The notes under the pieces were generated by a model. That model saw only the letters and a list, made by a program, of their open reading frames with translations. It did no database searches and was not told the DNA's origin. Positions 1 to 34,080 of a DNA stretch of 64,000 bases are shown piece after piece. Source of the stretch: Bradyrhizobium sp. LMTR 3 (GTDB taxonomy: Bacteria > Pseudomonadota > Alphaproteobacteria > Rhizobiales > Xanthobacteraceae); contig NZ_MAXC01000010.1 in assembly GCF_001693485.1 (NCBI RefSeq), positions 62,001 to 126,000 on the forward strand, in the 5' to 3' direction. How positions within the stretch are numbered: the first letter of the stretch is position 1; each line of letters begins with the position of its first letter. The position numbers were made by a program, and so were the translations under genes.

Positions 1-3000
1 AATGCCACGTCTTCGACGCCGCCGTCGATCTGGCCGAGATAGTTGAAGACAATCTTCGGCTCGGCAACGTCAGACAACGCCGCGCGCTGCTCCTCCGAGC
101 CGAGATAGCGCAATATGCCATAACCGAGTCCCCGGCCGGGTATGCCGCGAAGTTCCTCCTTCACGGTCTTGATGAGTGACGAGGGATCCTGTGACCCGCC
201 AGCCAGCCGCACGGGAAAGGCGGTGGTGAACCAGCCGACGGTGCGCGAAATGTCGAGATCGCCGAACAGGTCCTCGCGGCCGTGGCCCTCCAGCTCGACC
301 AGCACGTCGTGCAGTCCGCTCCATTGCCAGACAGCGCGTGCAAGGCCGGCAAGAAGAAGATCGTTGATCTGCGTCCGATAGGCGGACGGCGCATCCGTCA
401 GCAGGCGTTGCGTCAATTCCCGCTCGAACGTGAGCAAGACCTCGTCGGCATCGGCGACATAGTCGATGCCGCCATGCTCGTCATCGCAGGGAATATCCGC
501 ATTCGCACGGCGATCGATCCAATAGGAAAGTTCAATCGCCAATTCGGGCGACCCTGCATAATCTTGCAGCCGCTTGCCCCACACTGCATAGGCATGGCTC
601 TTCGGCGGAAGCGCAACCGCCGCGTCGCGGTTCATTAGCTGCACGTACGCGGCAGCGATGTCTTCCAGCAGGACCCGCCATGACACGCCGTCGACCACCA
701 GATGATGGATCACGATCAGAAAACGCTGAGTGCCATCGGCGACGTCGATCCCGACCGCCTGCAGCAGCGGTCCCCTCGATATCGAAAGACTTGCCTGCAC
801 TGATGCTGCCAACGCCGTCACAGCTTCGCCGTCGACCGCGCTTCGGATCCAAAGCAAATCCGCGGCGGCGGGTGCGGCGCCGTGCTCCGCGCGCCACGTT
901 CCTTCGACTTCCTCGAAGCGAAGCCGCAGCGCGTCATGATGGTCGACGACGGCCGCTAGCGCGCGCCGCATCATTTCCCAGTCGAGACGATCCTTCGGCC
1001 GCAGCAGCACCGCCTGGTTCCAGTGATCGCGCTTTCCTGCGTCCTCTGCAAAGAACCGCGCCTGGATCGGCAGCAGCGAATGCGGGCCGGTGACCTGCCC
1101 CTGATCGGCAAGCGTTTCGCTGCGCTGCTCGGTGCGTGCCGCGAGCGCCAGCGCTTCCAGCGTCTGATGCCGAAACACATCACGCGGTTCGATCAGGTAA
1201 CCGGCGCGGCGGGCCCGGCTCACCATCTGCAGCGAGATGATCGAATCGCCGCCGAGCTCGAAGAAATTGTCGGCGAGGCCGACAGCAGGCCGGCCGAGCA
1301 GTTCGGCCCAGATCGCCGCCAGCGCCAGTTCGGCCGGCGTGCGCGGCGCCTCGTACTGCGCAGCCGTGGACGCAGCGTCGGGCGCCGGAAGCGCCTGGCG
1401 GTCGATCTTGCCGTTCGGCGCCAGCGGCAGCCGCTCCAGCACCACGATCCGCGACGGCACCATGTAATCGGGCAGAACGGCCGACAGCACCGTCCGCAGC
1501 ACCTGTTCCTCCAGTTCACTCGCGCCGCTGACGTAACCGATGAGCTGGCGGCCGAATCCGACCTCGCGCGCCACCACCACCGCGGAGCGGACACCGGGCT
1601 GCTCAAGCAGCCGTGCCTCGATCTCGCCGAGCTCGATGCGGAATCCGCGAATCTTGATCTGGTGATCGGACCGCCCGACATACTCGATCGCCCCATCGGC
1701 GCGCCAACGCGCCAAATCACCCGTTCGATATAGAAGCGCGCCAGGGCCGCCGAAGGGATCGGGAAGGAAGCGTTCCGCCGTCAGCGCCTGACGTCGCCAG
1801 TAGCCCCGCGCCAGCCCTGCTCCGCCAATGAACAATTCACCGGTCACGCCGGCCGGGACCATATTCAGATCGGTATCGAGGATACGAATGACCGTACCCG
1901 GGATCGGCCGTCCGATCGGCACCCGCGCCGCGCCATCGTCGCGACAGTTCCAGAACGTGGCATTGATCAAGGCTTCGGTCGGACCGTAGCGATTGTCGAA
2001 GCGCACGTTGGGGAAGGCTGCGAGCGCACGCGTCTTCAATTCCGCCGGCAAGGCTTCGCCGCCGGAAAATAGCCGCTTGAGGGTGACGCAGCGCTCCGCT
2101 TCGGGCTCGGCAACAAAATGTTCGAGCATCTGCGGCACGAAATGCAGCGTCGTCACCTCATGGGCGACGATGACATCGACGAGAAGCCGCGGCTCCCGAT
2201 GCGCGCCCGGCGCCGCGATCGCAAGCCGTGCGCCGGTCGCCAGCGGCCACAGGATCTCCCAGACCGAGACGTCGAAGCTGAACGGCGTTTTCTGCAGCAA
2301 GGTCTCGCCGGCATCGAGGCGATATTCCGCCTGCATCCAGCCAAGCCGCGCAGCCAGCGCACCGTGCGAGCACGCCACGCCCTTCGGCATGCCCGTCGAT
2401 CCCGACGTGTACATCACATAGGCTAGGCTGTCGGCATGGAGCGCTACGTCGAGATTGCAAGCCGGCTCTCCTGCCCAAGTCTCGCTTTCTCCTTCTATAG
2501 CCCAGGCTTCAACGGACGCGCTCGCAATTGCGCGCTCGAGACGATCCAGCAGCCGGCTTTGCGTCAGCACCAGCGCGGCTCCGCTATCGCGCAGCATGTG
2601 CAGAAGACGGTCCGGCGGATAATCGGGATCGAGCGGCAGATAGGCTCCGCCGGCTTTCAGCACGGCGAGAACACCGACGATCAGTTCGACGCTGCGCTCC
2701 AGTGCCAGCCCGACCAACCGGTCGTGGCCGATTCCGTGGGCTTGTAGCCGCCTTGCCAGACAATTGGCGCGAGCGTTCAAATCCTCGTAGCTGACCTGCT
2801 GGTCGCCAAATACCAACGCAATAGCGGATGGCGAAGCAGCCGCACGAGCCTCGATCTGAGCGACGATACTATTGGCAACATTCGGAACCTTGGCAAAGCC
2901 ACCGCTCCAGCCGAGCACCTTCCGCGTCTCATCGGCGACGAGCCCGCTGAGCTCACCCAGCGGTCGGGAGGCATCCGCGACGATCTCGGCAAGGAGCCGC

Positions 3001-6000: not shown

Positions 6001-8948
6001 CGGGCCGGCACCATGTAATCGGGCAGTTCGTCCGAAAGGGCCGCGCGCATTGCCGCTTCATCGAACGCAGCCTCGCCGGCGACATAGCCGACCAGTTGGC
6101 TGGTTACGCCGACTTCACGGGCAACGACCACCACCGATCGCACGCCCGGCTGGCGCATCAGCCACGCCTCGATTTCGCCGAGCTCGATCCGGAAGCCGCG
6201 GATTTTCACCTGGTGATCGAAGCGTCCGACATACTCGATCACGCCATCGGGGCGCCATCTCGCCAAATCGCCGGTGCGATATAGCCGCGCGCCGGGCGCG
6301 CCAAAGGGATCGGGGATGAATCTCTCGGCCGTCAGTTCGGCGCGCCGCCAATAGCCTCGCGCCAGTCCCTCGCCGCCAATGAACAATTCGCCGGTCACGC
6401 CGACCGGCACGATGTTCAGGTCACCATCCAGAATATAAGCCGAGCGGCGTCCCACGGGACGGCCGATGGGCGCATAGTTGCCTTCGATCTCTTCGCTGGC
6501 ATCGACCTTCCAGACCAGCGGCGTCACCACCGTTTCAGTCGGGCCGTAGCCGTTGATCAATGTCCGCGGCTTGAGCGCGCGCTTGACCTTGTCGAAGCCT
6601 GCCTTCGGCATGGCCTCGCCGCCGAACGAGTAAAGCCCGACCGGCGGCGGATCGCCGCGCCACGCCGCGAAGTCGGCGAGCTGCTGCAAATAGGCCGGCG
6701 GAAAGCCCGCGTTGGTGACGCGCTGCTCGCGCAGAACGTCGAGCGTCTGTTCGGCCGACCACAGATTCTCGTCGCGCATCACGAGCGCCGCGCCGCAAGT
6801 CAGCGCCGTCCAGAGCCGCTCATGGGCGCCGTCAAAGGTAAAAGACAGGAAGTGCAGTTCGCGCGAGTACCGGTCCATGTCGTAGAGTCCGGCGGTCACC
6901 TCGCAATGCATCGCAAACGGCCCGTGCTCGACGGCTACTCCCTTCGGGATGCCGGTGGAGCCAGAGGTGTAGATCACATAGGCAAGGCTTGTTGCTTCGA
7001 CGGCAATGCCGGGATCGTTCTCCGACTCTTGGCCGAGATCGCTTGCGTCGAGCGGGACAGCCGCGATCCCCGACGGAAGCGCAGTGAGTGCCGAGCCTTC
7101 CAAATCAACCAGCACGAAGCGCACGCCGGCGTCGTGCATGGTCCCGACCTGTCGTTTTGCCGGATGCTCGGGATGGAGCGGCAGATAGGCCGCGCCGGTC
7201 TTCAATATGGCCAACAGCGCTACCACGAGGAATGGCGAGCGCCGCGCCGAGATACCGACCAGATCGGCAGGACTGACGCCCAAGCGGATCAGGCGATGTG
7301 CCAGCCGATTGGCACGACGGTCAAGCTCGGCATAGGAGATTACATCGTCGCCAAAGATAAGCGCCGGCGCGTCAGGTGTTTCCGTGGCCAGCCGCGCGAC
7401 CGTTTGGTGCACCGGCGTAAACGACGCGCCCATCCCGGCACCCGCGCCGTTCCACTCGCGGAGCGTGGCCACTTCCTGCGCTGAAAGCAGTGCCATGCCG
7501 GCGACCGACTGCGCGGCGTCCTGAACCATCGTGTTCAGGATCGTGATCCAATGCGACGCAAGGCGTTCGATCGTGGCCGGCTCGAACAGCGCGGTTGCAT
7601 AGGTAACGATCGCGCGGATCTCGCCTGTCGGTCCCTCTTCGCTGTCGAGCGCCAGGTCGAACTTCACTGTATCGACTTCGGCGTCGAGCTTCTCGATCTG
7701 CAGGCCGGTGCGGACGGGCGGATTGCCCGACACGCGCCGGCGCTGATGGTTGTAGAGCACCTGAAAGAGCGGGTTCTGACTCAAGCTGCGCTTTGGCTGC
7801 AGTATCTCCAGCAACCGCTCGAACGGAAAGTCCTGGTTCTCCTGCGCTTCGATCGTGGCCGAATGAACGGCAGCGATGAAGTCAGCGATCGTCGCGCGAC
7901 CGTCGAGCTGCGTGCGGAGCACCTGGGTGTTGACGAACAGCCCGATCACGCCGCGAGTCTCATCGCGATGGCGATTGGCGACCGGCACGCCGACGCTGAT
8001 GTCGGACTGGCCGGTGTAGCGATAAAGGAGCAGTTTGAAGCTCGCCAGCAGGACGACGAACAGCGTGGTCCGATGCCGGCGCGCCAGCGCGCGCAAGCCC
8101 TCGGCGAGCGCCGGATCGAACGTCATGCGGAGCGCGGCGCCGGCGAGATCAGGAACCGCCGGCCGCGCCCGATCGATTGGAAGCTGCAGCACCGCCGGAT
8201 CGTTCAAGCGCGCCGTCCAGTAATTGACCTGGCGCTCGCCATCGACAGCGCTCATCCAGAGCCGCTGCCAACAGGCATAGTCGGCATATTCAATATCGGG
8301 CTCCGGTAAAGCCGGCGCCTCGCCGCCTGCGAACGCCGCATACAAGCGCCAGAACTCGTCGACCAGCACGCCCATCGACCAGCCATCGGCCACGATGTGA
8401 TGCAGGCTGACGACAAGGAGATGGTCGTCTTCTTCCAGCCTCAGCAACGCGGCGCGCATCAGCGGGCCGGCTTCGAGATCGAACGGCAGCGATCCTTCCT
8501 GCCGCGCCAGCAGATATGCCTGCTGCTCGCGGTCATCGCCATCGAGCAATACATGCCGCAACGTGAACGGTTGCGGGTCGAGCACGACCTGCTCGGCTTC
8601 CCTGCCCTGCTGCCGAAACACCGTACGAAGTGCGCTGTGACGGGCGACCAGCGCATCGAAGGCCTGCTGCAGGGCGCGCCGTTGAAGCTGCCCTCGCACC
8701 CGCACCGTCGCCGATATGTTATAGGCGGCGCTGTCCGGATCCATCCGCCAAAAGAACCAGAGGCGCGATTGCGCAAAGGAAAGCGGTGCCCGCGTTTTCT
8801 CCTGGCGCGCAATCGGCAGCATGGCGAGATTGACGCCCTTCGCCGCGAGCTGCGTCAGGAACGCTTGTTGCTTGCCGGCATCAAGACGCATCAAGCGTTG
8901 CGAGATGTCACGAAGCTGCTGCTTCTGCGTGGCGGCGATATCATTCAT
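1..8948 (-). CDS. NRPS, third gene of the siderophore assembly line (C-A-PCP-E-C-A-PCP-E..., 3' end outside window)
   Basis: About 2,980 residues are visible; the C-terminal part lies beyond the left edge. Domain order from the start: C (HHIVADG near residue 183), A5 (core near 655), PCP (LGGDS near 1050), E (HHLVIDGVSW near 1230), C of the D-accepting type (HHILLDG near 1710), A6 (core near 2180), PCP (near 2570), then a second E domain (HHLVVDGVSW) cut by the edge. The A5 pocket reads DGEGSGGVTK, which I do not assign with confidence; Glu at position 239 hints at a basic side chain. A6 reads DVWHFGRINK, close to serine codes but with odd Arg and Asn. Both residues would be D-configured. The ATG overlaps the stop of the preceding NRPS gene by 8 bases (ATGAATGA), so translation is probably coupled. 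No thioesterase domain is seen, so chain release must be encoded further left. Confidence 0.95.
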   Translation of the reverse strand, partial: MNDIAATQKQQLRDISQRLMRLDAGKQQAFLTQLAAKGVNLAMLPIARQEKTRAPLSFAQSRLWFFWRMDPDSAAYNISATVRVRGQLQRRALQQAFDALVARHSALRTVFRQQGREAEQVVLDPQPFTLRHVLLDGDDREQQAYLLARQEGSLPFDLEAGPLMRAALLRLEEDDHLLVVSLHHIVADGWSMGVLVDEFWRLYAAFAGGEAPALPEPDIEYADYACWQRLWMSAVDGERQVNYWTARLNDPAVLQLPIDRARPAVPDLAGAALRMTFDPALAEGLRALARRHRTTLFVVLLASFKLLLYRYTGQSDISVGVPVANRHRDETRGVIGLFVNTQVLRTQLDGRATIADFIAAVHSATIEAQENQDFPFERLLEILQPKRSLSQNPLFQVLYNHQRRRVSGNPPVRTGLQIEKLDAEVDTVKFDLALDSEEGPTGEIRAIVTYATALFEPATIERLASHWITILNTMVQDAAQSVAGMALLSAQEVATLREWNGAGAGMGASFTPVHQTVARLATETPDAPALIFGDDVISYAELDRRANRLAHRLIRLGVSPADLVGISARRSPFLVVALLAILKTGAAYLPLHPEHPAKRQVGTMHDAGVRFVLVDLEGSALTALPSGIAAVPLDASDLGQESENDPGIAVEATSLAYVIYTSGSTGIPKGVAVEHGPFAMHCEVTAGLYDMDRYSRELHFLSFTFDGAHERLWTALTCGAALVMRDENLWSAEQTLDVLREQRVTNAGFPPAYLQQLADFAAWRGDPPPVGLYSFGGEAMPKAGFDKVKRALKPRTLINGYGPTETVVTPLVWKVDASEEIEGNYAPIGRPVGRRSAYILDGDLNIVPVGVTGELFIGGEGLARGYWRRAELTAERFIPDPFGAPGARLYRTGDLARWRPDGVIEYVGRFDHQVKIRGFRIELGEIEAWLMRQPGVRSVVVVAREVGVTSQLVGYVAGEAAFDEAAMRAALSDELPDYMVPARIVKLERLPLTAHGKVDRAALPAPDAQATAGGHVAPRTATEATLAAIWAELLGQPLIGIDDNFFELGGDSIISLQLVGRARQAGLVIEPRDVFRHQTLQELAWAARVERPVEEAAPEKDLDGSEHPLLPIQARFFSEDAGERHHWNQAVLLMPKSRLDWASVERAVAAVVAHHDALRLGFREVDGAWRAIYGAAPAASELLWIRSGIRDAAEVTAVASAAQVSLSLAGPLLRVVGMDLVDGSQRLLIVVHHLVIDGVSWRVLLEDFAAAYGQFRQGTASFALARSQSYASWGARLQAYSGAEELSAELPYWLERGSRADLPCDDDHDGIDRVAEGEEILLAFDAGLTTRLLKETPSAYRTQVNDLLLAALARAVSRWSGIEDVAVELEGHGREDIFARVDISRTVGWFTTAFPVRLPGGSGDDASLIKFVKEELRAIPARGLGYGVLRHLGTEAQRHALGALPEPRIVFNYLGQFDSSVGEGTPFRIAPESAGPSRSDSAPLGRWLSINGQVREGQLRLSFSYGRRRYRRATIERLAEHYAAALRELVDHCTSGARGITPSDVALSNLSQADLDLLGATIDCRDIEDIYPLSPMQQGMLFHALRDGESGNYVNQVGLEVRGLDAGRLRAAWHEVSGRHAVLRTGFAWRELSGAAQQVVYRHVTLPFVEEDWREQAAAMDRGEREAALAKASQAERARGFDLSQAPLQRVRLIRLDESRHWLIWTHHHILLDGWSSARLVAEILQHERGHRLPAVQGRYRDYIAWLQRQDRDASGTFWRTALAELDEPGFLADTLGGPAASGASGHGSLDLLLTADLTAKLHAFTKRERVTLNTLLQGAWAQLLRRHTGRRVVCFGATVSGRPAEIGGSEDMVGLFINTLPVVDRANPQTDVGAWLRDLQERNIDLRDHGWMPLYEIQRLAGRSGRPLFDNILVFENYPIDQALRGENESGRRFGRVEQVSITNYALTVAVFAKADGINLGFRYDRARFNEGQVRYLQLTLSRLLAEIVADASRPLGELSGLVADETRKVLGWSGGFAKVPNVANSIVAQIEARAAASPSAIALVFGDQQVSYEDLNARANCLARRLQAHGIGHDRLVGLALERSVELIVGVLAVLKAGGAYLPLDPDYPPDRLLHMLRDSGAALVLTQSRLLDRLERAIASASVEAWAIEGESETWAGEPACNLDVALHADSLAYVMYTSGSTGMPKGVACSHGALAARLGWMQAEYRLDAGETLLQKTPFSFDVSVWEILWPLATGARLAIAAPGAHREPRLLVDVIVAHEVTTLHFVPQMLEHFVAEPEAERCVTLKRLFSGGEALPAELKTRALAAFPNVRFDNRYGPTEALINATFWNCRDDGAARVPIGRPIPGTVIRILDTDLNMVPAGVTGELFIGGAGLARGYWRRQALTAERFLPDPFGGPGALLYRTGDLARWRADGAIEYVGRSDHQIKIRGFRIELGEIEARLLEQPGVRSAVVVAREVGFGRQLIGYVSGASELEEQVLRTVLSAVLPDYMVPSRIVVLERLPLAPNGKIDRQALPAPDAASTAAQYEAPRTPAELALAAIWAELLGRPAVGLADNFFELGGDSIISLQMVSRARRAGYLIEPRDVFRHQTLEALALAARTEQRSETLADQGQVTGPHSLLPIQARFFAEDAGKRDHWNQAVLLRPKDRLDWEMMRRALAAVVDHHDALRLRFEEVEGTWRAEHGAAPAAADLLWIRSAVDGEAVTALAASVQASLSISRGPLLQAVGIDVADGTQRFLIVIHHLVVDGVSWRVLLEDIAAAYVQLMNRDAAVALPPKSHAYAVWGKRLQDYAGSPELAIELSYWIDRRANADIPCDDEHGGIDYVADADEVLLTFERELTQRLLTDAPSAYRTQINDLLLAGLARAVWQWSGLHDVLVELEGHGREDLFGDLDISRTVGWFTTAFPVRLAGGSQDPSSLIKTVKEELRGIPGRGLGYGILRYLGSEEQRAALSDVAEPKIVFNYLGQIDGGVEDVA

Positions 8949-21500: not shown

Positions 21501-24500
21501 CGGGTGGATCAGATCCTCGGGCGGCACGCTCGATGTTTCCTCGTGCGCCGCTTCGGCTTCCGCATCGAGCACGGTGCAATCGAGCGCAAGCGCTTGTGCC
21601 AGCTTCTCGCCGGCTGCCAGCACGATTGCGATGTCCCCGTCCTTCAGGATGCGCCTGATACGCTCCAGCGGCCATTTCGGATCGAGCGGCACATAGGCGC
21701 CGCCGGCCTTCAGCACGCCAAGCAGCCCGACAACGAAGGCCGGAGAGCGCTCGATCCACAGCGCAACCGGTACCTCGCGCGTCACGCCCTTGCCTGCAAG
21801 CATGTGAGCTATTCGGTTCGATTTCTGCTCCAGCTCGGCGAACGTCAGCGTCTCACTGCCGCACCGGATGGCAACCCCGGCCTGGCGATCGGCCGTCGAC
21901 GCACGATGAAGACCGACCACATCGGTAAATCCAAACGCGGCTGCCTCGCTCGGCACGACCTGCCGGTTCGCATCGTCGATGACGAAGTCCGAAATGCGCC
22001 GCTCAGCATTTTCCGCGATCTGGCGCAGCATCGAGCCGAACTGCGCCGCCAGCCGCGCAATCGTCGGGCGATTGAACAAATCGGTGGCGTAGTTGAACGT
22101 CGCCTTCATGCCGCCGGCGCCATCGACGACATCAAGCGCAAGATCGAAATGCGAACCCGCGAGGTCCATGATGTCGATCTCGGCGGTGAGCCCTGCGATA
22201 CCGTCGAACCCGCGCGGCGCCGTCATGTAGTTGAACTTGGCCTGGAACAGCGGATTGTGCCCACCGCTTCGTTCAGGGCGCAGCCCGTCGACAAGCATTT
22301 CGAATGGCAGATCCTGATGCGACAGCGCTTCGATCACCGCGCCCTTGACCTCTCGCAGCAGGTTCGGGAAGGTTGCGTCATCGGCAATCTCGGCCCGCAG
22401 CACCAGCGTGTTGACGAAGCAGCCAATCAGCCGCTCGAGCTGCGCGTGACGGCGTCCCGCGACCGGCACGCCGACGCGCAAATCGCTCTGCCCCGTATAG
22501 CGATGCAACAGCCCCTGGTACGCCGCGAGCAGCAGCATGAAGACGCTCACGCGATATCTTGCGGCGATCTCCCGTAATCGAGCGGCCAGCGCGCCGTCGA
22601 CGGCAAGGCCGATCGTATCGCCGGCATGGCTTTGCGTTGCCAGACGCGGCCGGTCATGGGGCAGCGCCAGCACGGGGTGCGCGTCACCCAGCTTTGCGCG
22701 CCAATAGGCGAGCTGCCGATCTCCCTCGCCACCAGCGAGCCAGTTTCGCTGCCAGACCGCGAAATCCGCATATTGCATCATCGGCACCGGCGGCCGGCCT
22801 GCGTCCTGCCCGGTGCCGTTGCGGTAGAGTCCCGCCAGCTCTTCGAGCATCACGTCGAGCGACCATCCATCGACGGCGATGTGATGAGCAAGCAGCAGCA
22901 ATTCGTGCGCATCATCTGCGAGCTGAAGCAACACCGCCCGCAATAGCGGCCCATTGACAAGGTCGAACGGTTTGCCGAGTTCGGACCGCCTGACCTCCGC
23001 CGCATGTTCGGCGGGACTTCCACGGAGATCCTGGTGCCTGATATCGACGCCGATGGCGTCGTGAATGACCTGCCTTGCGCGACCGTCCGTTGCGACGAAT
23101 GTGGTGCGCAGCACCTCATGACGCTGAACGATTTCCGCAATTGCCTGCGACAAGGCGATATGGTCGAGCTTCCCCTTCAGCCGGATCGTGCTCGCGACCG
23201 TATACGCCGTACCATTGGGGTCCAGATTCCAGAGAAACCACAGCCGCTCCTGCGCATGGGACAAGGTCGCGCGATCGGCCGGCGTCGCCCGCTGGATCGG
23301 AGAAAGCCCCCTCTTCGCGCCATCGCGCAACAGAGCGTCGATATGATCAGCGAATGCGCCAAGCCTCGGCGCATCGAAGAAGCTGCGCAGTTCCAGCTCG
23401 ACGCCGAAACGTTCGCGCAGCGCCGCGGCGATCTGGCCGGCCGCGATCGAGTTTCCGCCCAGCACGAAGAAATCGTCCTCGCGGTGCACGGCTCTTACGC
23501 CCAGCGCCTCGCACCAGATCGACGCCAGCGCGCGCTCGGTGTCGGTTACGGGCGCGGTCAGCGTCGCGCCATCGCGGCGTCGCCCTCGCTCGAACACCAT
23601 AAAGCTGTCGAGCGTGTTGTTGGCCCAGCCGGCGGCGCAGGCGGAGCGCTGCAACTTTCCACTCGTCGTCAGCGGCATCGCTTGCGGATTCAACAGCACG
23701 ATCACGGCCGGATATTCCTGCGCCTGCCGCAGCACCGCCTCGCCGATTCCCTGGGCGAGAGCCTCGGGACGCTCGCGCTTGAGAACGGCGCGGCTGAACT
23801 CTGCCGCGACGCCAATGCTTTCCCGCCCATCGATCTCGACCGCAAACGCGGCAACCCGTCCGCTACGGACGGATTCGACCTCGGCTTCGACCGCCTGCTC
23901 AACGTCAGTCGGATATACATTCTGGCCGCGAACGATCAGCAGGTCCTTGAGCCGGCCCGTCACGATCAGCGCGCCGTCCTTGACGAAACCGATATCCCCG
24001 GTACGCAGCCAACGCACGCCGTCGCGCTCGACGAAGGCTTTGTGTGTGGCTTCGGGATTGTTCCAGTATCCGAGCGCGACACTCGGGCCCGCGACCCAGA
24101 TCTCGCCGACTTCGTCGGCCGGTGCCGCCATCGATCCATCAATGCGCATGATGCGCGTGACATGATTGGCGGCCGCCCGACCGCATGCCACAAGGTCAGT
24201 GCCCTCGTCGGCTGTTGCGACGCGGCCCGCCGCAAGCGCCGCCGTATCGAGGGTATAGCTGACGGTTTTGGTCGAGAGGTCACCTGCCGTTACCAGCAGC
24301 GTTGCCTCGGCCAAGCCGTAGCACGCGTTCAACGCTCGTCGATTGAACCCGGCCGGCTCGAACCTGTCGCCGAATCTGCGCAGCGTGGTCTGGCGCACAA
24401 ATTCCGAGCCGGAGAATGCGAACCGCCAGCGGCTAAGGTCGAGCCGGCCGATCGTTTCGTCGGAGATGCGGTCGGCACACAGCGCGAAGGCAAAGTCAGG

Positions 24501-25271
24501 TCCGCCACTGAGCGTACCGCCGTGACGATCGATGGCCTCAAGCCAGCGTCGCGGCCGCTCGAGAAAATTGCGCGGCGACATCAGGACGGCGGTAAAGCCG
24601 GTAAACAGCGGATTCAACAGCCCGCCGATCAGTCCCATGTCATGATAGAGCGGCAGCCAGCTCACAAAGACGTCGTCGGGCGTCCCTGCGGCCACGGCCT
24701 CGATCGCCTTCTCGTTGGCCGTCAGGTTCGCGTGAGAGACGCAGACGCCTTTCGGCTGCGAGGTCGATCCGGACGTGTACTGCAGGAAGGCAATCGCATC
24801 TGCCTCCGGCCTCGTCTCGCGCCACTCTGCAGCAAGCGCCGCCGGTATCGCATCTACCGCGATGATCTCTACATTCGCCAGCTCGGGAGGTGCCGCTTCC
24901 ACCGCACCAACCAGCGCGGCTTCCGTCAGGATGAAGCGAGGCGTCGCATCGCGCAGAATGCCGTTGAGACGCCCTGCATAGCGCTCGGCACCGGTCTCCG
25001 GCGCATACGCCGGGACAGCGATCACACCGGAATACAGGCACGCATAGAACGCCACGGCATAGTCGAGGCCGCTGGGCAGCAGGATAACCCCGCGCTCGCC
25101 CGCGCCGCCCAACTGCTGCAGGTAGGCCGCGACGGATCGAATCCGGGCGTCGAGACCGGCAAACGTCAACTCTTCGGCGACGCCGTCTCCCTCCAGGAAG
25201 CGCAACGCGATCCCGTCCGGGCGTAACGCGGCGTGGCACCGTAGTCGTTCGACGAGGTTATCTCTGTACAT
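15522..25271 (-). CDS. NRPS, first gene: FAAL-ACP loading module plus two modules (C-A-PCP-E-C-A-PCP)
   Basis: A 3,249-residue initiating synthetase. Residues 1 to about 580 form a fatty-acyl-AMP ligase (YTSGSTSQPKG near 165, LPLYHDMGLIGG further on). A carrier domain with FVLGGNS near 605 follows. Module 1: C (HHIAVDG near 793), A1 (core near 1265), PCP (LGGDS near 1655), E (HHLVVDGVSW near 1847, with EGHGRE and VFNYLG motifs). Module 2: D-accepting C (HHIFVDG near 2326), A2 (core near 2800), PCP (LGGHS near 3185). The A1 pocket reads DLTKIGHVGK, essentially the aspartate code; A2 reads DIEFIGAIAK, unassigned. So a lipid-loaded chain starts with D-Asp, a candidate for beta-hydroxylation by the neighbouring dioxygenase. 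The start ATG is 55 bases after the hydroxylase gene, in the same operon. Confidence 0.97.
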   Translation of the reverse strand: MYRDNLVERLRCHAALRPDGIALRFLEGDGVAEELTFAGLDARIRSVAAYLQQLGGAGERGVILLPSGLDYAVAFYACLYSGVIAVPAYAPETGAERYAGRLNGILRDATPRFILTEAALVGAVEAAPPELANVEIIAVDAIPAALAAEWRETRPEADAIAFLQYTSGSTSQPKGVCVSHANLTANEKAIEAVAAGTPDDVFVSWLPLYHDMGLIGGLLNPLFTGFTAVLMSPRNFLERPRRWLEAIDRHGGTLSGGPDFAFALCADRISDETIGRLDLSRWRFAFSGSEFVRQTTLRRFGDRFEPAGFNRRALNACYGLAEATLLVTAGDLSTKTVSYTLDTAALAAGRVATADEGTDLVACGRAAANHVTRIMRIDGSMAAPADEVGEIWVAGPSVALGYWNNPEATHKAFVERDGVRWLRTGDIGFVKDGALIVTGRLKDLLIVRGQNVYPTDVEQAVEAEVESVRSGRVAAFAVEIDGRESIGVAAEFSRAVLKRERPEALAQGIGEAVLRQAQEYPAVIVLLNPQAMPLTTSGKLQRSACAAGWANNTLDSFMVFERGRRRDGATLTAPVTDTERALASIWCEALGVRAVHREDDFFVLGGNSIAAGQIAAALRERFGVELELRSFFDAPRLGAFADHIDALLRDGAKRGLSPIQRATPADRATLSHAQERLWFLWNLDPNGTAYTVASTIRLKGKLDHIALSQAIAEIVQRHEVLRTTFVATDGRARQVIHDAIGVDIRHQDLRGSPAEHAAEVRRSELGKPFDLVNGPLLRAVLLQLADDAHELLLLAHHIAVDGWSLDVMLEELAGLYRNGTGQDAGRPPVPMMQYADFAVWQRNWLAGGEGDRQLAYWRAKLGDAHPVLALPHDRPRLATQSHAGDTIGLAVDGALAARLREIAARYRVSVFMLLLAAYQGLLHRYTGQSDLRVGVPVAGRRHAQLERLIGCFVNTLVLRAEIADDATFPNLLREVKGAVIEALSHQDLPFEMLVDGLRPERSGGHNPLFQAKFNYMTAPRGFDGIAGLTAEIDIMDLAGSHFDLALDVVDGAGGMKATFNYATDLFNRPTIARLAAQFGSMLRQIAENAERRISDFVIDDANRQVVPSEAAAFGFTDVVGLHRASTADRQAGVAIRCGSETLTFAELEQKSNRIAHMLAGKGVTREVPVALWIERSPAFVVGLLGVLKAGGAYVPLDPKWPLERIRRILKDGDIAIVLAAGEKLAQALALDCTVLDAEAEAAHEETSSVPPEDLIHPAQTAYVIYTSGSTGTPKGVAVSHGALANYVQALLQRLQPQHLANMAMVSTVAADLGHTVLFGALACGATLHLLPPEVVFDADAFAKAMRDGEVGILKIVPSHLRGLLKASCSADLLPSDTLILGGEASDPALLNEIRQLRPQCRILNHYGPTETTVGAVTYECEATDEIGPVPIGLPLANLRVHVLDDALNEVPIGVSGELYIGGAGVARGYRGEAGLTAERFIPDPFGPAGARLYRTGDRVRCDRTGRLIFLGRGDDQIKLRGYRIELGEVGRAIKALQGIDDAVVVARAIGDSAERWEIVAHCVPAMGATPKPDVIKQQLAAVVPEYMVPSHIIVLQRLPLTPNGKIDRKALPEPAGDVVAANYSAPLGDTEEQIAAVWREVLGRERIGRTDNFFELGGDSILSLQIIARLRKRGIRLTPKQVFGQQTVAGLATVAAVAAAPLARKESSAAKVSIDAATGMRHLLPIQARFFSEDIGNRDHWNQAVLLVPQSRMDWETLRRALTTIVDHHDALRLRFAQVDGAWRAAQGTPPSPSELLWIHTDVGDATQVTALASAAQESLSLSAGRLLRAVAMDLADGSQRLLIAIHHLVVDGVSWRVLLEDLAAAYEQLKRGAAATLPPKSESYASWGERLHSYATTSELADELPFWLDCAAGPGLPCDDDHGGVDRVGDGEEVSLVFDTELTSSLLQDAPSAYRTQVNDLMLASLARAVSRWSQRDDVTVELEGHGREDIFPGADISRTVGWFTTAFPVRLQGGSDDHASLIKTVKERLRAIPNRGLGYGVLRYLGADHQRKALAQLAEPQVVFNYLGRFDGSVGASSLFGFASESAGASRSAAAPLRGWLNITGLVREGRLHLSFGYGRKRYRRETVERLAKLYETALRELVAHCCSGASGLTPSDFPLSGLDQADLDRLATTLDLRSIEDIYPLSPMQQGMLFHAIRDGDNDAYVNQIGLELFGFDADKLRAAWQAVCDRHAAVRTGFVWQHVSGAAQQVVHRHVTVPFVEEDWRSRTAALERGGRAELDAALAEASRRERESGFDVSQPPLQRVRLIRLDDKRHWLIWTHHHIFVDGWSSARLVAEVFRHVSGCALPAVQGSYRDYIAWLQSRDHAGAEKFWRDALAELETPTLLANAPATNNKTSEEGHASIALSVNPELTERLKASAKRERVTLNTLVQAAWAQLLRRHSGQAAVCFGVTVSGRPADLPGSEEMVGLFINTLPIVDAPGPQARVGDWLRQLQEQNLALREHGWTPLYEIQRLAGQAGQALFDSILVFENYPIDEALRRTGESGPRLGRVQHVTPTNYALAVAVFAGSERLDLEFNYDRARFDEVAIRRLRDILHGLLERIAASAERPIGDLGLSAGDEARRILEWSGAGRLAAGAPYVGVVAHIEAQAARAPSALAIVWGDQRLSYGELNARANQLAKRLRHFEAGPDRLTGIALARSPEMMVALLAVLKAGGAYLPLDPDYPAERLAYMLRDSAATLVLTQSVLLEPLAPVLRETGVEAWCIDEPQRPVGEDTANLNLEIHPDSLAYVIYTSGSTGTPKGVSVSHGPLAMHCEAIGRLYRMTSRDREFQSASINFDIAHERWLVPLMTGGSLVLPSRPGLLMDDLVDEIARNSVSTIFLPPAYADQLSAALRQSRRRLAIRACIVGGEAWSDSGIKALRQTADVDLLVNAYGPTETVIAPTAWLVDDAALTPGLPAPIGRPVGIRSAYILDADLNIVPVGVTGELFIGGVGLARGYLNRGALTAERFIPDPFGGSGARLYRTGDLARWRADGVIDYVGRADQQVKIRGFRIELGEIEARLLEQRGVRAAAVVTRESRTGRQLVAYASGEPTLDGRALRDALSANLPDYMVPSTIMVLEQLPLTPNGKIDRRALPSPHEDAQARRFYEAPEDEIEIALAKIWAELLGVDLIGRNDHFFELGGHSLLAVRVLSRVSQEIGVSIPVSDLFVHPDLASFARVVSIRLIEQEFDADELQDLIAAGQ

Positions 25272-25326
25272 CTTCTCGAATCCAGTTCGCCCGCGACCGA
25301 CGATTCTCGCCGCCCGAAAATGCCGA

Positions 25327-26295
25327 TCAGCCCTGCCGATGCGCTTCCGCCATGGCGACGATCACCTTGCGAGGCCCCTTGAACGGCGCGCGCGCATGCG
25401 CGGTGAGCATGTTGTCCAGCATCACCACGTCGCCGGCCTGCCAGGGAAAGCTGATCTTGTGCGTTTCGAGAACGTTGCGGACGGTGGCGAGCATCTCGTC
25501 GTCGATCGGCGAGCCGTCGCCGTAGAACACGTTACGCGGCAGGTCGGTCTCGTCGCCGACCACGTCGAGCAAGCTCTCGCGCACCTCCGGCTCGAGATTG
25601 GAGACGTGAAACAAATGGGCCTGATTGAACCAGACCCACTCTCCCGTTACCGGATGCCGTGCCGTCCCCTGACAGATCTGGCGCGTGCGAAGCTCGCCGT
25701 CTTCCTTCCATTCACATTCGATGTCGTGCCCGGCGCAGTAGGCCTCGACCTCCGATCTCGACTCGGTGCCGAACACCTGCTGCCAGTCGACGTCGAGCCC
25801 GTTGCCATAGTTCCGCACATACATCACGCCCTTCTCGGCGAACCGCTCCCGAATGGCCGGCGGCATGTCGCGATAGATGGCGCGGCTGTCGGCGATCGGC
25901 GTCTCGCCGCCTTCCTGCGCCGGCTTCATGCAATAGAACCAGATCTTCATCGGCCAATCGCGCGTATAGGCCTGCTCGTTGTGCAGCGGGATATGCTGGT
26001 GCGGCGGGTATTCCGTGGAAGTGTAGACGCCGGAGGTAACCTGCGAGCGCGGCGTCGATCCAAACTCGTATGTGAGCAGCGGATGACCGAAATCGGCCGC
26101 GAACGCCCGGAACGCGTCGGGGCCATCGAGAGAGAAATCGCGAAACACGATGCCGCCGCAATCGGTCAAATGCCGGTCGATGGTATCGCGCAGCATGGGA
26201 AGCGCCGCGCCAAGCGGCTGCCCGGCCTTGTCGGCCTTCAGCAGCAACGGAAGAGTTTTGCCTTCAATGAGTGGCTGAACGGAGAATACGCTCAT
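25327..26295 (-). CDS. SyrP-like TauD/TfdA dioxygenase, probable NRPS-bound aspartate beta-hydroxylase
   Basis: 322 residues of the Fe(II)/2-oxoglutarate TauD family. The iron triad is visible as His105-x-Glu107 (LHNEQAY) and distal His300, with Arg309 placed for 2-oxoglutarate. His-Asn-Glu instead of His-x-Asp is the form seen in SyrP-type hydroxylases that act on carrier-bound aspartate. Context agrees: the gene lies directly before the NRPS genes, and the first A domain reads as Asp. Inferred role: it makes beta-hydroxy-Asp, a bidentate iron ligand, in the cytoplasm on the PCP. The first 32 bases overlap the end of the thioesterase gene, so the two are co-transcribed. A taurine or sulfonate dioxygenase function is less likely given the operon. 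Confidence 0.9.
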   Translation of the reverse strand: MSVFSVQPLIEGKTLPLLLKADKAGQPLGAALPMLRDTIDRHLTDCGGIVFRDFSLDGPDAFRAFAADFGHPLLTYEFGSTPRSQVTSGVYTSTEYPPHQHIPLHNEQAYTRDWPMKIWFYCMKPAQEGGETPIADSRAIYRDMPPAIRERFAEKGVMYVRNYGNGLDVDWQQVFGTESRSEVEAYCAGHDIECEWKEDGELRTRQICQGTARHPVTGEWVWFNQAHLFHVSNLEPEVRESLLDVVGDETDLPRNVFYGDGSPIDDEMLATVRNVLETHKISFPWQAGDVVMLDNMLTAHARAPFKGPRKVIVAMAEAHRQG

Positions 26296-27019
26296 GATCC
26301 TCGCTCCGATGCGAACTAATCGATCGCCCTGATCGCCGGGCCAGGGCCGATCCGATCAGGCCGAGCAGTTCGGCTTGCTGCGTGTGAATGAAGAAGTGAT
26401 GGCCTGGCAGCACGTCGAGCGCGAATTCCGCCGACGTTTCCTGCCGCCAGGCCTGTAACGATTCGTGGCCGGTCTTGTCGTCAGCCCCGCCGAAGACGTG
26501 CACGGGACACGACAGCGGATGCCGCCGCCGATAGACATACGCGCCGCACATCAAAAAATCCGCGCGGAGCACCGGCAATGCGGACCGCATCAGCTCCGCA
26601 TTCGACAACGCCTCATCCGGCGTGCCCTGCAGATCGCGCAGCTCCTTCAGCAGCGCCTCGTCGCTCAATGGCAGGCGCCATTTGCTGCCGTCTCGAACGG
26701 CCGGCGCCTCGGCACCTGAGGCAAAGAGAATGGCCGGAGCAGCCGCGCCGCGATCGCGCAAGCTATGCGCGAGTTCGAACGCAATCAGCGCGCCGAGACT
26801 ATGTCCAAACAACGCATACGGCGTATCGAGCTGGACGTGAAGTTCTGCAGCGAGTTGCCGTGCAAGCGCGTGCGGGTCGGTCGCCAGCGGCTCGTCCATG
26901 CGTGCGCCGCGCCCGGGCCATTCCACCGGCCGGACATCGATCCATGACGGCAACAGCCTGCGCCACCGTGCATAGAACATGGCGCTGCCGCCGGAGTAAG
27001 GCAGACAAAGAAGCCGCAT
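26264..27019 (-). CDS. Type II (editing) thioesterase
   Basis: 251 residues, alpha/beta hydrolase fold of the NRPS-associated external thioesterases (GrsT/RifR type). The nucleophile elbow GHSLGA has Ser74; the acidic residue lies in the FGGADD segment and the catalytic His in GHHFFIH near residue 207. It opens with LCLPYSGGSA, the usual LPYAGGS-like start of this family. Such enzymes clear misprimed or stalled carrier domains in trans. The gene lies 22 bases after mbtH and overlaps the hydroxylase gene by 32 bases, so all belong to one operon. Because no TE domain is in view in the synthetases, a role in product release cannot be excluded from this window alone. Confidence 0.93.
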   Translation of the reverse strand: MRLLCLPYSGGSAMFYARWRRLLPSWIDVRPVEWPGRGARMDEPLATDPHALARQLAAELHVQLDTPYALFGHSLGALIAFELAHSLRDRGAAAPAILFASGAEAPAVRDGSKWRLPLSDEALLKELRDLQGTPDEALSNAELMRSALPVLRADFLMCGAYVYRRRHPLSCPVHVFGGADDKTGHESLQAWRQETSAEFALDVLPGHHFFIHTQQAELLGLIGSALARRSGRSISSHRSEDHERILRSATH

Positions 27020-27041
27020 CGGACGACAAGGCTCCGTTGGC

Positions 27042-27269
27042 TCAAGCCGACTTCTGCGGCGCCGTCTCGTCCATGAATTTGCGCAGCGTTAGGGGGCGCA
27101 TGTCGGTCCACACTTGCTCGATGTGCTCGAGGCATTCCTTCTTGCTGCCCGTCTTGCCAACTGCTTTCCAGCCGTTCGGAATTTCCTTGAACGTCGGCCA
27201 GATGGAGTATTGCTCTTCGTGATTGATAACGACGGTAAAGGTGACGTCGTCTCTGTCGAACACCATCAT
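27042..27269 (-). CDS. MbtH-like NRPS accessory protein
   Basis: 75 residues with the family pattern: [14 protein letters not shown], the Cys-Leu helix, and the WTDMRPLTL signature. MbtH proteins bind A domains and help them fold or activate amino acids. It is the first gene of the siderophore operon, 22 bases before the thioesterase. The double ATG at the start is preceded by GAGGGA about 8 bases upstream, a good ribosome binding site, which fixes the start. A short Lys/Ala tail after RPLTL is normal for the family. Confidence 0.97.
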
Positions 27270-27308
27270 GGTTCGGTCCCTCTTCAGAAAACGAAAGCAA
27301 TGACGTGT

Positions 27309-27337
27309 TGACTAGGTCAGAAGCAAATGAGGGTCAA
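27309..27337 (-). promoter_or_regulatory. Candidate -35/-10 promoter of the mbtH-NRPS operon
   Basis: On the minus strand TTGACC (27332-27337) is followed after 17 bases by TAGTCA (27309-27314), ending 39 bases before the mbtH start. The -35 match is good and the -10 match weak. The rest of the 27270-27580 gap shows only a half-site resembling an ICE box near 27463-27479, too weak to call. Inferred from spacing and sequence only. Confidence 0.3.
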
Positions 27338-27581
27338 AGCAATATCGACGACGAAGTTTTTAATAGCTCCAAGGTGGCGATAGCGTGAAATGATGCAACC
27401 TCCGCGCTTGCGCGGCCGAGCTCGTGACAAGCGACTGATGGGCAATGCGATGCGCAGTTTCTTGCAATTCTAGCTCGCCAGGCGGGAACCTTTTTGATTT
27501 CCGAAATCGCACATCCAACGTCCGACGATTTTTTCATCGCATTGTCATCAATTTCGACGCGTCAGGTTTGCGACACCATCA

Positions 27582-27620
27582 GATCAAAGAAATGCCGCCG
27601 CGGATGAGATCCGCGGCGGC
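27582..27620 (-). terminator. Hairpin terminator of the TonB receptor gene
   Basis: A perfect 12-bp stem (GCCGCCGCGGAT at 27594-27605 pairing with 27609-27620) with a 3-base loop, followed on the minus strand by ATTTCTTT. It starts 32 bases after the receptor stop codon and separates the receptor from the mbtH operon. Confidence 0.75.
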
Positions 27621-27652
27621 AAATATTTCAGGTGATGCGAACGGCGTAGCGT

Positions 27653-30031
27653 TCAGAAGTTGAACGTCGTCGACAGGAGGTAGGTCCGAGGAGCAGCGAG
27701 CGTGATCACGCCGCTGTAGGCCGAGGCCCAGTAAGCCTCGTTGAAGACGTTCTCGATGTTGGCGCGCACCACGATCGGCTTGCCGTTCCAGGGTGAGGTG
27801 AAGGTATATCGCGCGCCGATATCGACGCGCGTCCACTCCGGCAGCGTGAGGGTGTTGGTCTCGTTGACATATTGCGGACCGGTATAAATGACCCTTGCCG
27901 AGAGGGTCAGGTCACGCATGAACGGCGTATCCCAATCCACTCCGATGTTCGCGGTGAGCGCTGGCACGCCAACCGCCTTCTTGCCATTGTTGCGTGGGTC
28001 TCGGGCCTGTTCCTGCACGCCGTCGATCAAGGCTAGGCCACCAAGCAATCGAATCGCCGGCGTGATTTCGCCGAATACGTTGATCTCCGCACCGCGGTTG
28101 CGCTGTCTGCCGTTGAGTTCCTGGGTCGCAGTCACACCCGAGCCCACCGTGATGATGCTCGGCTGATTGATGTCGAACATACTCAGCGTTGTCGTGATGC
28201 GGCCTGCGTCGATCTTCACGCCCGCCTCGGCCTGTTGCGTTTGTGCGACCGGGAACACAGTCCCGCGATTGGCATAGATGCCACTGACGACAGTCGGTGT
28301 CTGGAGCCCTTCGATATAATTTGCGTAGAGCGAGATATTCTCGACCGGCTTGATCAAGATGGCATAGGCCGGGCTCCACACGGATTCTTCCTGAAAGGGC
28401 CGGCTCGGATTGGCGAGGGTTGGCAAGAAATTTAGCACCTCGCTTCCAGCCGTCTGACGACGAAGGCCGACGGTGAACTGGACGCGCTCGTTCAGCATCG
28501 ACATGGTATCGGTAACGCCGATGCTCGACAATCTCACTCCGGTAATTTGATTGGCAGCCAGAAACGTGAAGTTGGGCTTGGGAATATTGGTCGGCTCGTT
28601 GTAGAGGTTCCAGAAGATAACGTCGGCCACAGGATTATTCGAACGTGTCCGGACCTGCTGCGTATAGGTTCGGTCGTTGATGGAGTAGTTGGCGTTCAGC
28701 GCATGATTGATCGGGCCGGTGTCCACCGTTGCACGAAGGCCCGCCTCACCTGCGAGCGTCTCGAACGTCTCCTTGCCGGCAAACGGTCGCGACCACAGGC
28801 CTCCCAATTGGAACGTACCCGGGGGGGACGTTATGGCTCCCGGAGCAAGATTGGAGATGTTGGGCGAAGGATAGGCATAGTTGATGTTACTGTCGTGATA
28901 TCCAAACGCCGCATAGGCGGTTACCGAGTCGGTGAGGTCAACCTCGCCCTTTACGGTCGAGAAGAAGTCCGTTGGCGCATAGTAGGCCCACGGAACTTGG
29001 AAATTGTGTCCGGCTTTCGGCGGCGGAGGAATAATGGTTGTTGTGGGAGCGACTGTAAAGAAACGCAAGGGCGGCTTCAGATTGTCGGCCTGGTAGCCGA
29101 CATCAACCTCCATGCGCGCGTTCTCACCGCGGTAGTCGAGACCGAGGTGAACGTTGCCAAATTCGTCGGTCTGACGATTCCAGGGCGTGTTGCCGTTTGA
29201 ATAGGTGCTGTTCAGCCGAATGCCCCACTCCTTGCGCTCGCCGTAGCGCCGGCTGACGTCCATATGCCCGCCGAACTGCGATTTCGAAACATAGGTGCCC
29301 GTCAGCCGCGTGATGTCGACATCGAGAGCATGCTTGGTGATGAGATTGATGCTGCCGCCGACCGCACCACCGCTCGAAACACCGGTACCGCCAGTGGTCA
29401 TGCCGTTGAGCACGGCGCTCGGGCCCTTCAATACCTCGACGCGCTCGATGAAATTTGCCCCGATGGAGTAGTATGGCGCGATTCCGTACAGGCCGTTCAA
29501 CCCAAAATCGCCGCTGTCATAATAGAAGCCGCGGATGAACAGACTGTCGGCGCCGCCGCCCGCTGCCTGCACCACTCTCACGGAAGGATCGTTCGCCAGT
29601 ACGTCACGGATGGTGCGCGCCTGCTGGTTTGCGATCAATTCCGCCGTGTAGCTGGTCTGGTTGAACGGCGTATCCATCACGCCGCGATTGCCGAGAATGC
29701 CCAAGGTTCCGCCACTCGCCACCTGTCCGCCAGCATAGGGAGCCGGGAGCGCGCCGATAGTTCCAGTCGAAGGCGTCACATACGGAACCGGCTCCACCCG
29801 AGGCGGCGCCGGCGCAGCGACGCGCCGCTGCACGCGCGACGTCGACGTTTGCGTTCTCCGTGCTGCTGCGGGCCGCGCGCGTTGCTGGGTTGGAGCATCG
29901 ACGGTGACGGGCGGCAGGTTCTGCGCGAATGCGCTCGGGCCGCCGGCAAAATCCAGTGAGAGCGCAAGATAGCTCACCGCTCCCAGCGAAACAGCGCGCA
30001 TAACATTTCTGGCAGCGACACGATGCGTCAT
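27653..30031 (-). CDS. TonB-dependent siderophore receptor
   Basis: About 792 residues. The start at 30031 is chosen because it gives a signal peptide (a basic start, a hydrophobic stretch, cleavage after SAFAQ) and has GGGG 7 bases upstream; the same frame opens further upstream at 30130 with no sensible signal. After a Pro/Arg/Thr-rich linker holding a TonB-box-like VTVDA comes a plug domain (IRDVLANDPSVRV, then VEVLKGPSAVLNG near 235), and a beta-barrel ending in the aromatic STTFNF tail. This is the ferric-siderophore receptor subtype. It lies directly upstream of the siderophore operon on the same strand with its own terminator, and two ICE-like boxes lie 140-185 bases before its start, so iron-dependent expression and uptake of the local product are likely. 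Confidence 0.95.
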   Translation of the reverse strand: MTHRVAARNVMRAVSLGAVSYLALSLDFAGGPSAFAQNLPPVTVDAPTQQRARPAAARRTQTSTSRVQRRVAAPAPPRVEPVPYVTPSTGTIGALPAPYAGGQVASGGTLGILGNRGVMDTPFNQTSYTAELIANQQARTIRDVLANDPSVRVVQAAGGGADSLFIRGFYYDSGDFGLNGLYGIAPYYSIGANFIERVEVLKGPSAVLNGMTTGGTGVSSGGAVGGSINLITKHALDVDITRLTGTYVSKSQFGGHMDVSRRYGERKEWGIRLNSTYSNGNTPWNRQTDEFGNVHLGLDYRGENARMEVDVGYQADNLKPPLRFFTVAPTTTIIPPPPKAGHNFQVPWAYYAPTDFFSTVKGEVDLTDSVTAYAAFGYHDSNINYAYPSPNISNLAPGAITSPPGTFQLGGLWSRPFAGKETFETLAGEAGLRATVDTGPINHALNANYSINDRTYTQQVRTRSNNPVADVIFWNLYNEPTNIPKPNFTFLAANQITGVRLSSIGVTDTMSMLNERVQFTVGLRRQTAGSEVLNFLPTLANPSRPFQEESVWSPAYAILIKPVENISLYANYIEGLQTPTVVSGIYANRGTVFPVAQTQQAEAGVKIDAGRITTTLSMFDINQPSIITVGSGVTATQELNGRQRNRGAEINVFGEITPAIRLLGGLALIDGVQEQARDPRNNGKKAVGVPALTANIGVDWDTPFMRDLTLSARVIYTGPQYVNETNTLTLPEWTRVDIGARYTFTSPWNGKPIVVRANIENVFNEAYWASAYSGVITLAAPRTYLLSTTFNF

Positions 30032-30170
30032 ACTTCTACCCCAAAGACCCACAAGCAGGTTCCGGCTCGTTCTAACTTCTGAGGTGGAAACGGCGAGTAG
30101 AAGCCATCTAAGGTAACGAAGCGTGCACATAACGGATTGCGTTAGTGGCGACGAGGCAACACCTCACACT

Positions 30171-30187
30171 TTTCGAATCGTTCTAAG
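30171..30187 (-). promoter_or_regulatory. ICE-like (Irr) box 1 upstream of the TonB receptor
   Basis: TTTCGAA-TCG-TTCTAAG, matching the rhizobial Irr/ICE palindrome TTTAGAA-NNN-TTCTAAA, as I recall it, at 12 of 14 positions. It is one of two tandem copies in the receptor's upstream region. The function is inferred from the motif and from the siderophore context. Confidence 0.55.
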
Positions 30188-30197
30188 CCGCATGGAA

Positions 30198-30214
30198 TTT
30201 TTAAGCGTTCTAAA
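30198..30214 (-). promoter_or_regulatory. ICE-like (Irr) box 2 upstream of the TonB receptor
   Basis: TTTTTAA-GCG-TTCTAAA: the right half matches the ICE half-site perfectly and the left half at 5 of 7. Its centre is 27 bases from box 1. A further lone half-site (CGTTCTAA) lies near 30068-30075. Confidence 0.5.
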
Positions 30215-34003: not shown

Positions 34004-34080
34004 TGGTCGGAGTGGCAGGATTCGAACCTGCGACCCCTGCGTCCCGAACGCAGTGCTCTACCGGGCTGAGCCACACTCCG
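34004..34080 (-). tRNA. tRNA-Pro (anticodon CGG)
   Basis: 77 bases on the minus strand with a complete cloverleaf: acceptor CGGAGTG/CACTCCG, D arm GCTC/GAGC, anticodon arm CTGCG-TTCGGGA-CGCAG (anticodon CGG), five-base variable loop, T arm GCAGG-TTCGAAT-CCTGC, discriminator A and encoded CCA. Its 3' end faces the broken integrase 8 bases away, so the 3' half of the gene is probably the attachment site of an integrated element lying to the left. Confidence 0.98.

Follow-up and report, generated by a model that had tools for sequence, protein, structure and literature searches.

A probable acylated octapeptide siderophore locus in Bradyrhizobium and Nitrobacter, with a receptor of two classes

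We identified what is very probably a complete locus for the biosynthesis, export and uptake of an acylated octapeptide siderophore of Bradyrhizobium, in which the genes, their order, the A-domain codes and their conservation are observed, and the chemistry, regulation and transport are predicted from them. It was found in a stretch of 64,000 nucleotides (the window; bases 62001-126000 of contig C11 in the 7.83-Mb draft genome G000 of Bradyrhizobium sp. LMTR 3), and the contig was also read for 26 kb leftward. Since orthologues were found in many species, a chance assembly of these genes is excluded. The features are listed below by window position unless a contig is named, with predicted residues in brackets:

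15522..25271, minus strand: NRPS1, FAAL-ACP-C-A1(Asp)-PCP-E-C-A2(X2)-PCP, 3249 aa (motifs; codes DLTKIGHVG and DIEFIGAIA)
8941..15525, minus strand: NRPS2, C-A3(Phe)-PCP-probable dual C/E-A4(Gly)-PCP, 2194 aa (codes, linker, HHLIGDH motif)
1..8948, minus strand: window part of NRPS3, C-A5(N5-OH-Orn)-PCP-E-C-A6(X6)-PCP-E (motifs, codes)
Beyond the left edge to G000:C11:54506, minus strand: remainder of NRPS3, C-A7(Gly)-PCP-C-A8(N5-OH-Orn)-PCP-TE (motifs, codes)
G000:C11:54506-70948, minus strand: NRPS3 entire, 5480 aa
25327..26295, minus strand: stand-alone TauD-type (TauD/SyrP-like) aspartyl beta-hydroxylase (PF02668, E 1.2e-50)
26264..27019, minus strand: type II thioesterase, TEII (PF00975, E 1.2e-47)
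27042..27269, minus strand: MbtH-like protein (PF03621, E 1.5e-25)
27653..30130, minus strand: TonB-dependent siderophore receptor, class I plug and barrel (TIGR01783, 279.8 bits against a cut-off of 223.5); likely start at 30031, ahead of a signal-peptide-like stretch
30171..30213, minus strand: two ICE (Irr-box)-like elements on the upstream side of the receptor (motif search)

The Pfam and TIGR01783 matches bear out the MbtH, type II thioesterase, SyrP-like hydroxylase and TonB siderophore receptor named in the preliminary description of the window. That description also counted six modules, because the window edge cuts NRPS3. All six are present, and motif and code reading gives eight modules and a TE for the three synthetases together, in the order FAAL-ACP-C-A1-PCP-E-C-A2-PCP / C-A3-PCP-dual C/E-A4-PCP / C-A5-PCP-E-C-A6-PCP-E-C-A7-PCP-C-A8-PCP-TE. 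The further chain expected after residue 6 corresponds to Gly and N5-OH-ornithine modules and the TE. The locus accounts for 11 of the 14 condensation-family (PF00668) matches of the genome, which were assigned to eight C domains and three E domains, all with active-site His motifs, and it carries nine carrier motifs. A second NRPS locus of the same genome lies at G000:C52:26860-31059. Interface C domains were ruled out as a reading of the extra C-type domains, which carry (V/I)GWFT and are E domains; in seven genomes, NRPS3 has IGWFT instead of VGWFT in the first of its E domains. As in FAAL-primed lipopeptide siderophores, a FAAL-ACP loading domain precedes module 1. This start, already proposed earlier, is borne out by position, by motifs and by several fatty-acyl-AMP ligase models that match NRPS1 residues 5-555 with up to 550 bits, none above its curated cut-off.

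The predicted chain is acyl, D-Asp(beta-OH), X2, D-Phe, Gly, D-(N5-OH-Orn), D-X6, Gly, N5-OH-Orn. The code of A3, DAWTVAGVC, is one we take to specify Phe, and A4 and A7 share the code DILQLGLVW, presumably for Gly; in the genome of the window, the A domains of these twin Gly modules have 91% identity. Between modules 3 and 4, the linker has 88 residues against 54-74 at five other measured carrier junctions (three of which lead to E domains), and the domain that follows carries the motif HHLIGDH, which we take to be typical of dual C/E domains. Linker and motif point to a dual C/E domain, and D-Phe is therefore likely. A PDB search with this domain returned other C-domain chains. Dual C/E domains have been reported with long linkers in the accessible text of PMC10212144; the carrier motif GGHSL, considered as further support, was dropped, as that paper assigns LGGHSL to LCL and LGGHSI to dual domains.

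The A1 code DLTKIGHVG is of Asp type, and the Asp-coding module and an aspartyl beta-hydroxylase occur together in the locus, as in beta-OH-Asp lipopeptide siderophores. Neither the A2 code nor that of A6, DVWHFGRIN, has a secure match; the latter agrees at five of nine positions with DVWHFSLVD, presumably a Ser code, and Ser at module 6 is tentative. Among the code sequences given in the available part of PMC12283262, DLTKVGHVGK is common to Asp and Asn domains, DILQLGMIWK is given for Gly, and DGEGSGGVTK stands among those for modified ornithines. A5 and A8 share the code DGEGSGGVT, and X5 is very likely N5-OH-ornithine. The A6 code also has five of nine positions in common with the ornithine-type code DVWNIGLIH (PMC12283262), and a fourth bidentate ligand is therefore possible. 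When six of the A-domain code strings were sought in print, DGEGSGGVT alone was met, in one paper, and the A2 and A6 codes found no match. The codes, the E domains and the probable dual C/E domain are consistent with the residue order proposed earlier, its D-Ser-like residue 6 being tentative.

Residue 2 had been left open, in agreement with the A2 code, with one correction: position 2 is Gly, judged by the A2 codes, in the BTAi1 clade (B. aeschynomenes, SSBR45G, BTAi1, G065 and G145). In all other Bradyrhizobium and Nitrobacter NRPS1 read, including 21 named loci and the window, A2 has DIEFIGAIA. Identity of NRPS1 to that of G145 is lowest at residues 2821-2940 (29-38%; the next lowest 60-residue stretch has 40%), and A2 of G145 is 78-79% identical to the Gly domains of G145 itself. 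It looks as if an exchange of the A-domain core made position 2 Gly in this clade. In the Gly version, the module for Asp and the two for OH-Orn are retained, so that residue 2 probably takes no part in iron binding.

The beta-hydroxylase is 69% identical to Pandoraea hydroxylases. Siderophore Asp hydroxylases of the TBH_Asp class of Reitz et al. are reportedly free-standing and are said to act with synthetases that have no extra interface C-type domain. Here the hydroxylase has its own ORF, and the eight C domains and three E domains cover all 11 PF00668 matches at the locus, with no extra interface domain among them. In a 32-row tree with several long branches, it groups with Pandoraea and Pseudomonas enzymes (93/90, open fork), and a Variovorax-type clade (100/100) stands apart from this group. 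Given that the Pandoraea product holds L-erythro-OH-Asp, according to the text available of PMC12144892, and that an E domain follows module 1, D-threo-beta-OH-Asp would be expected here.

An ornithine N-hydroxylase and an exporter, predicted earlier to be encoded to the left, were both found in the left flank. The Lys/Orn N-monooxygenase (PF13434, E 3e-115) lies there with a GNAT acyltransferase of the Acetyltransf_8 type (PF13523, E 1.7e-55), a pair also characteristic of hydroxamate lipopeptide siderophores, with substrates that are predicted. No formyltransferase was detected among 20 region proteins scanned with Pfam, the GNAT acyltransferase standing in its place. The ABC exporter is of the cyclic-peptide type (TIGR01194, 679 bits against a cut-off of 286), a FhuB-like permease exceeds the cut-off of NF007866, and a FhuD-like binding protein reaches 222.5 bits, below the cut-off of 252. 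Genes for a siderophore-interacting protein (SIP), an ABC ATPase, an esterase and a PPTase complete the flank (Pfam and NCBIfam). The GNAT acyltransferase matches none of the NCBIfam models, and the scores of the monooxygenase and the FhuD-like protein fall short of the curated cut-offs; the N5-acetyl group and the import of the hydroxamate are accordingly predictions.

Upstream of the receptor, the two ICE-like boxes of the preliminary description were recovered as Irr-type iron control elements common to most loci: TTAGAACGCTTAAAAA at 30198-30213 and TTAGAACGATTCGAAA at 30171-30186, both on the minus strand. Reading 'ICE' as integrative elements would be wrong for these boxes before a TonB receptor. 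A third TTAGAAC lies at 30075. Over both strands, the window has four TTAGAA words, three of them within the 140 bp of these elements. In S. meliloti mbfA, the ICE core that was mutated is TTCTAA, of the half-site TTCTAA/TTAGAA (PMC7540006, available text). The search covered 330 nt at the projected receptor start (300 upstream and 30 inside) in 24 loci, whose rows are related and not independent cases; TTAGAA-N7-AAA was found in 19 of them, against 1.2% of 4800 stretches of 330 nt drawn at random from these loci, and not in the other five (both Nitrobacter, LHD-71, B. aeschynomenes and SSBR45G). The locus thus has an ICE-like element near a promoter, as expected of the Irr regulon, and we infer that it may be under Irr control.

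In the pathway we propose, FAAL would activate a fatty acid and load it onto the ACP, and the eight modules would add D-(beta-OH)Asp, X2, D-Phe, Gly, D-(N5-acyl-N5-OH-Orn), D-X6, Gly and a terminal N5-OH-Orn, before the TE releases the product, either linear or as a cyclic hydroxamate. The stand-alone TauD enzyme would form the beta-OH-Asp, and the monooxygenase and the GNAT acyltransferase would build the hydroxamates. With beta-OH-Asp and two hydroxamates, the product would offer six iron donors and be hexadentate. The ABC exporter would secrete it, the TonB receptor with the FhuB-, FhuD- and FhuC-like proteins would return the iron complex, and the Irr boxes would tie expression to iron.

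The distribution of the locus was followed in named genomes, of which the best 80 of 186 hydroxylase relatives were kept. Among these 80, the nearest 21 belong to Bradyrhizobium and Nitrobacter, and their NRPS1 matches run over the full length at 72-93% identity; Methylobacterium comes next, with 54% over about 0.8 of the length in three loci, and in Inquilinus, Pandoraea and Pseudomonas NRPS1 is matched weakly or in part. By these sequence matches, the locus is one of Bradyrhizobium and Nitrobacter. The record titled Mycobacterium sp. KBS0706 (L086) has a hydroxylase locus that resembles those of Inquilinus and is possibly a misnamed genome. Within 146 sampled Bradyrhizobium genomes, the hydroxylase (E <= 1e-30) and the acyltransferase were each found in 27, with identities of at least 76% and at least 67%, respectively, in 26, and the same 26 hold both.

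G087, G114, G128, G143 and G135 keep the gene order of the cluster from monooxygenase to receptor. The PPTase has no match in the stretch of G135 that was read, nor the M20 peptidase in G128. G145 has the synthetases, monooxygenase, GNAT acyltransferase, exporter and receptor, with no match for FhuB, FhuD or SIP in the 54 kb read. The order A5-A8 is intact in 19 of the 21 genomes read, and two have single-residue code variants. An apparent five-module synthetase in G092 and G135 was dismissed as an artefact of draft assemblies that collapsed at modules 4 and 7, the twin Gly modules; the missing modules sit on other contigs (G092:C8 and G135:C22), starting at most 13 bases from the contig end. 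NRPS2 is broken into two reading frames in three of the 21 genomes (G087, L038-L039; G110, L140-L141; G001, L158), two of them single-contig, by decay or sequencing error. An M20 peptidase gene lies upstream of the receptor at window 30307-31455 and is matched (E <= 1e-20) in 16 of 24 loci including its own, in some partially. About 2.5 kb past it, at 34004-34080, is a tRNA-Pro (CGG) gene, a possible island edge.

The receptor was compared in 24 loci (the window's own, L057-L077, L081 and L084), with L078 and L085 omitted because their stored flanks gave no receptor match; in L085 (Bradyrhizobium sp. BTAi1), the hydroxylase and NRPS1 were found. It falls into two classes (100/100 support), class II being present in 8 of the 24. 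When the receptor class is mapped onto a quickly built tree of NRPS1 (residues 1-2600), it needs six changes, at least five of them forced by the starred branches; shuffled class labels need 6.9 changes on average, and 147-155 of 500 shuffles are equally low. Between the window and B. retamae (L073), compared in 250-nt steps, DNA identity is 86-96% on either side of the receptor and 45-72% inside it, from about 380 nt into the frame to about 100 nt short of its end. Columns that separate the classes at a threshold of 0.85 number 139 of 877 in the receptor, all at residue 145 or beyond, and none in NRPS1 (3296 columns), TauD, TEII, MbtH or M20 (24 rows, 17 for M20). Another set of up to 20 genomes, which overlaps the first and in which the six class II receptors were defined by less than 65% identity to that of the window, gave perfect separation in 102 of 860 receptor columns and none, with 14-20 rows each, in the PPTase, monooxygenase, GNAT, exporter, SIP, ATPase, FhuB-like, FhuD-like, esterase, NRPS2 or NRPS3. 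As identity drops within the receptor and class columns are absent elsewhere in the cluster, the receptor has been exchanged without the product genes. No second, class II receptor copy was detected at E <= 1e-60 in the class I genomes (four of seven genomes searched); each of the seven holds a single receptor allele, the other matches being paralogues of 42-48%. Three receptor stretches contain an in-frame stop, each ahead of the likely start codon.

Both classes would import the same compound. A further reading, with somewhat less than even chances, is a self-receptor that evolves free of its siderophore, two deeply diverged plug-barrel cassettes being swapped by recombination among species that make the same product; pressure on the receptor, such as phage or bacteriocin entry, rather than on the siderophore would drive the swap, and both forms would import the same molecule. 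Rather unlikely is that the two classes mark slightly different products, lock and key, the difference lying outside the A-domain codes, for example in the fatty acid, the hydroxamate acyl group or the release chemistry. Such covariation of synthetase and receptor has been described for pyoverdines (PMC12806101, text available), but the cluster proteins show no class-linked column against the 139 and 102 of the receptor, a comparison that a many-residue or unlinked determinant would escape.

We consider it very improbable that the lipopeptide serves mainly a purpose other than iron uptake, as a surfactant or antibacterial comparable to those of other SyrP-type hydroxylase clusters, with the siderophore genes mere neighbours. 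The product would be amphiphilic, and such hydroxylases also act in non-metallophore lipopeptides (PMC12971057, in part). Against this stand the two modules with hydroxamate-type codes, the Irr-type boxes, and the monooxygenase, N-acyltransferase, TonB receptor, FhuB/FhuD-like and SIP genes, which, in five genomes, lie beside the synthetases with identities of 55-99%.

Lipopeptide siderophores that are FAAL-primed and combine beta-OH-Asp with hydroxamates are already known, and what appears to be new is the predicted residue order. As far as their available texts go, three systems are close. The marinobactin and formomarinobactin loci (PMC13037486) share the FAAL start, Asp as first residue, two N-OH-ornithines, TauD enzyme, MbtH and TE, and a GNAT or a formyltransferase sets acetyl or formyl there; they differ in having six residues (Asp-Dab-Ser-OHOrn-Ser-OHOrn) against the eight with Phe and two Gly here. 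The pan locus for pandorabactin of Pandoraea (PMC12144892) shares FAAL, PPTase, MbtH, TEII, ornithine hydroxylase, acetyltransferase and Asp hydroxylase, but has six modules, predicted as OHOrn-Asp-Thr-OHOrn-Ala-Asp, and its NRPS1 counterpart is merely 38-40% identical to that here. Its backbone is predicted to start with N-delta-OH-Orn, and OH-Orn was detected in the product (PMC12144892); DGEGSGGMT, near-identical to the A5/A8 code, is the first-module code in all six Pandoraea loci read of eight fetched. Potashchelin of Halomonas (PMC7100376) shares the FAAL, a long acyl peptide from beta-OH-Asp, a dual C/E domain and a terminal OH-Orn, but has nine residues, two beta-OH-Asp, one hydroxamate and no Phe. 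The earlier remark that the order was not recognised still holds: no described cluster with the same residue order, and no mbaABCH set assigned to a FAAL-primed lipo-octapeptide, was met among the papers listed by the literature search, which lie mostly outside subscription papers.

According to the accessible text of PMC12815270 (2025), homologues of mbaAB occur in 85 and of mbaABCH in 41 of 278 Bradyrhizobium strains, the formyltransferase is absent, and the sets were read as incomplete and malleobactin-like, the N5-formyltransferase mbaE being essential for malleobactin. Of six strains tested there, one, B. yuanmingense CCBAU 25021, gave siderophore in culture, and it holds mbaABCH and a putative dimethylcoprogen cluster. 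The record of B. yuanmingense CCBAU 10071 contains the lipo-octapeptide locus. The ornithine monooxygenase of the locus is the only full-length PF13434 match both in G135 (B. yuanmingense) and in the genome of the window, others being partial and weak, and because of this position in G135 the mbaABCH sets are probably this locus, a complete lipo-octapeptide pathway in place of an incomplete malleobactin one. Very improbable, too, is the degraded or incomplete malleobactin/ornibactin-type locus that the 'mba' label suggests, since the shared ornithine monooxygenase, Asp hydroxylase and NRPSs with E and TE, and the counts of mba homologues, are outweighed by the FAAL-ACP start and eight modules, by a GNAT acyltransferase and no mbaE-type formyltransferase among the 20 region proteins scanned, and by the conserved receptor, exporter and uptake genes.

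Bradyrhizobium is a root-nodule genus that includes major soybean symbionts. It was recently judged limited in siderophore biosynthesis (PMC12815270, available text). The locus suggests a product for the single siderophore-making strain of the six tested in that study and may explain that result. It also offers a natural test of the question raised in PMC12806101, as far as its text is available, of whether siderophore or receptor must change, since at this locus it is the receptor that varies while the synthetase stays the same. The predicted complete pathway, present in 26 of 146 sampled genomes, would revise the view of Bradyrhizobium as limited in siderophore biosynthesis.
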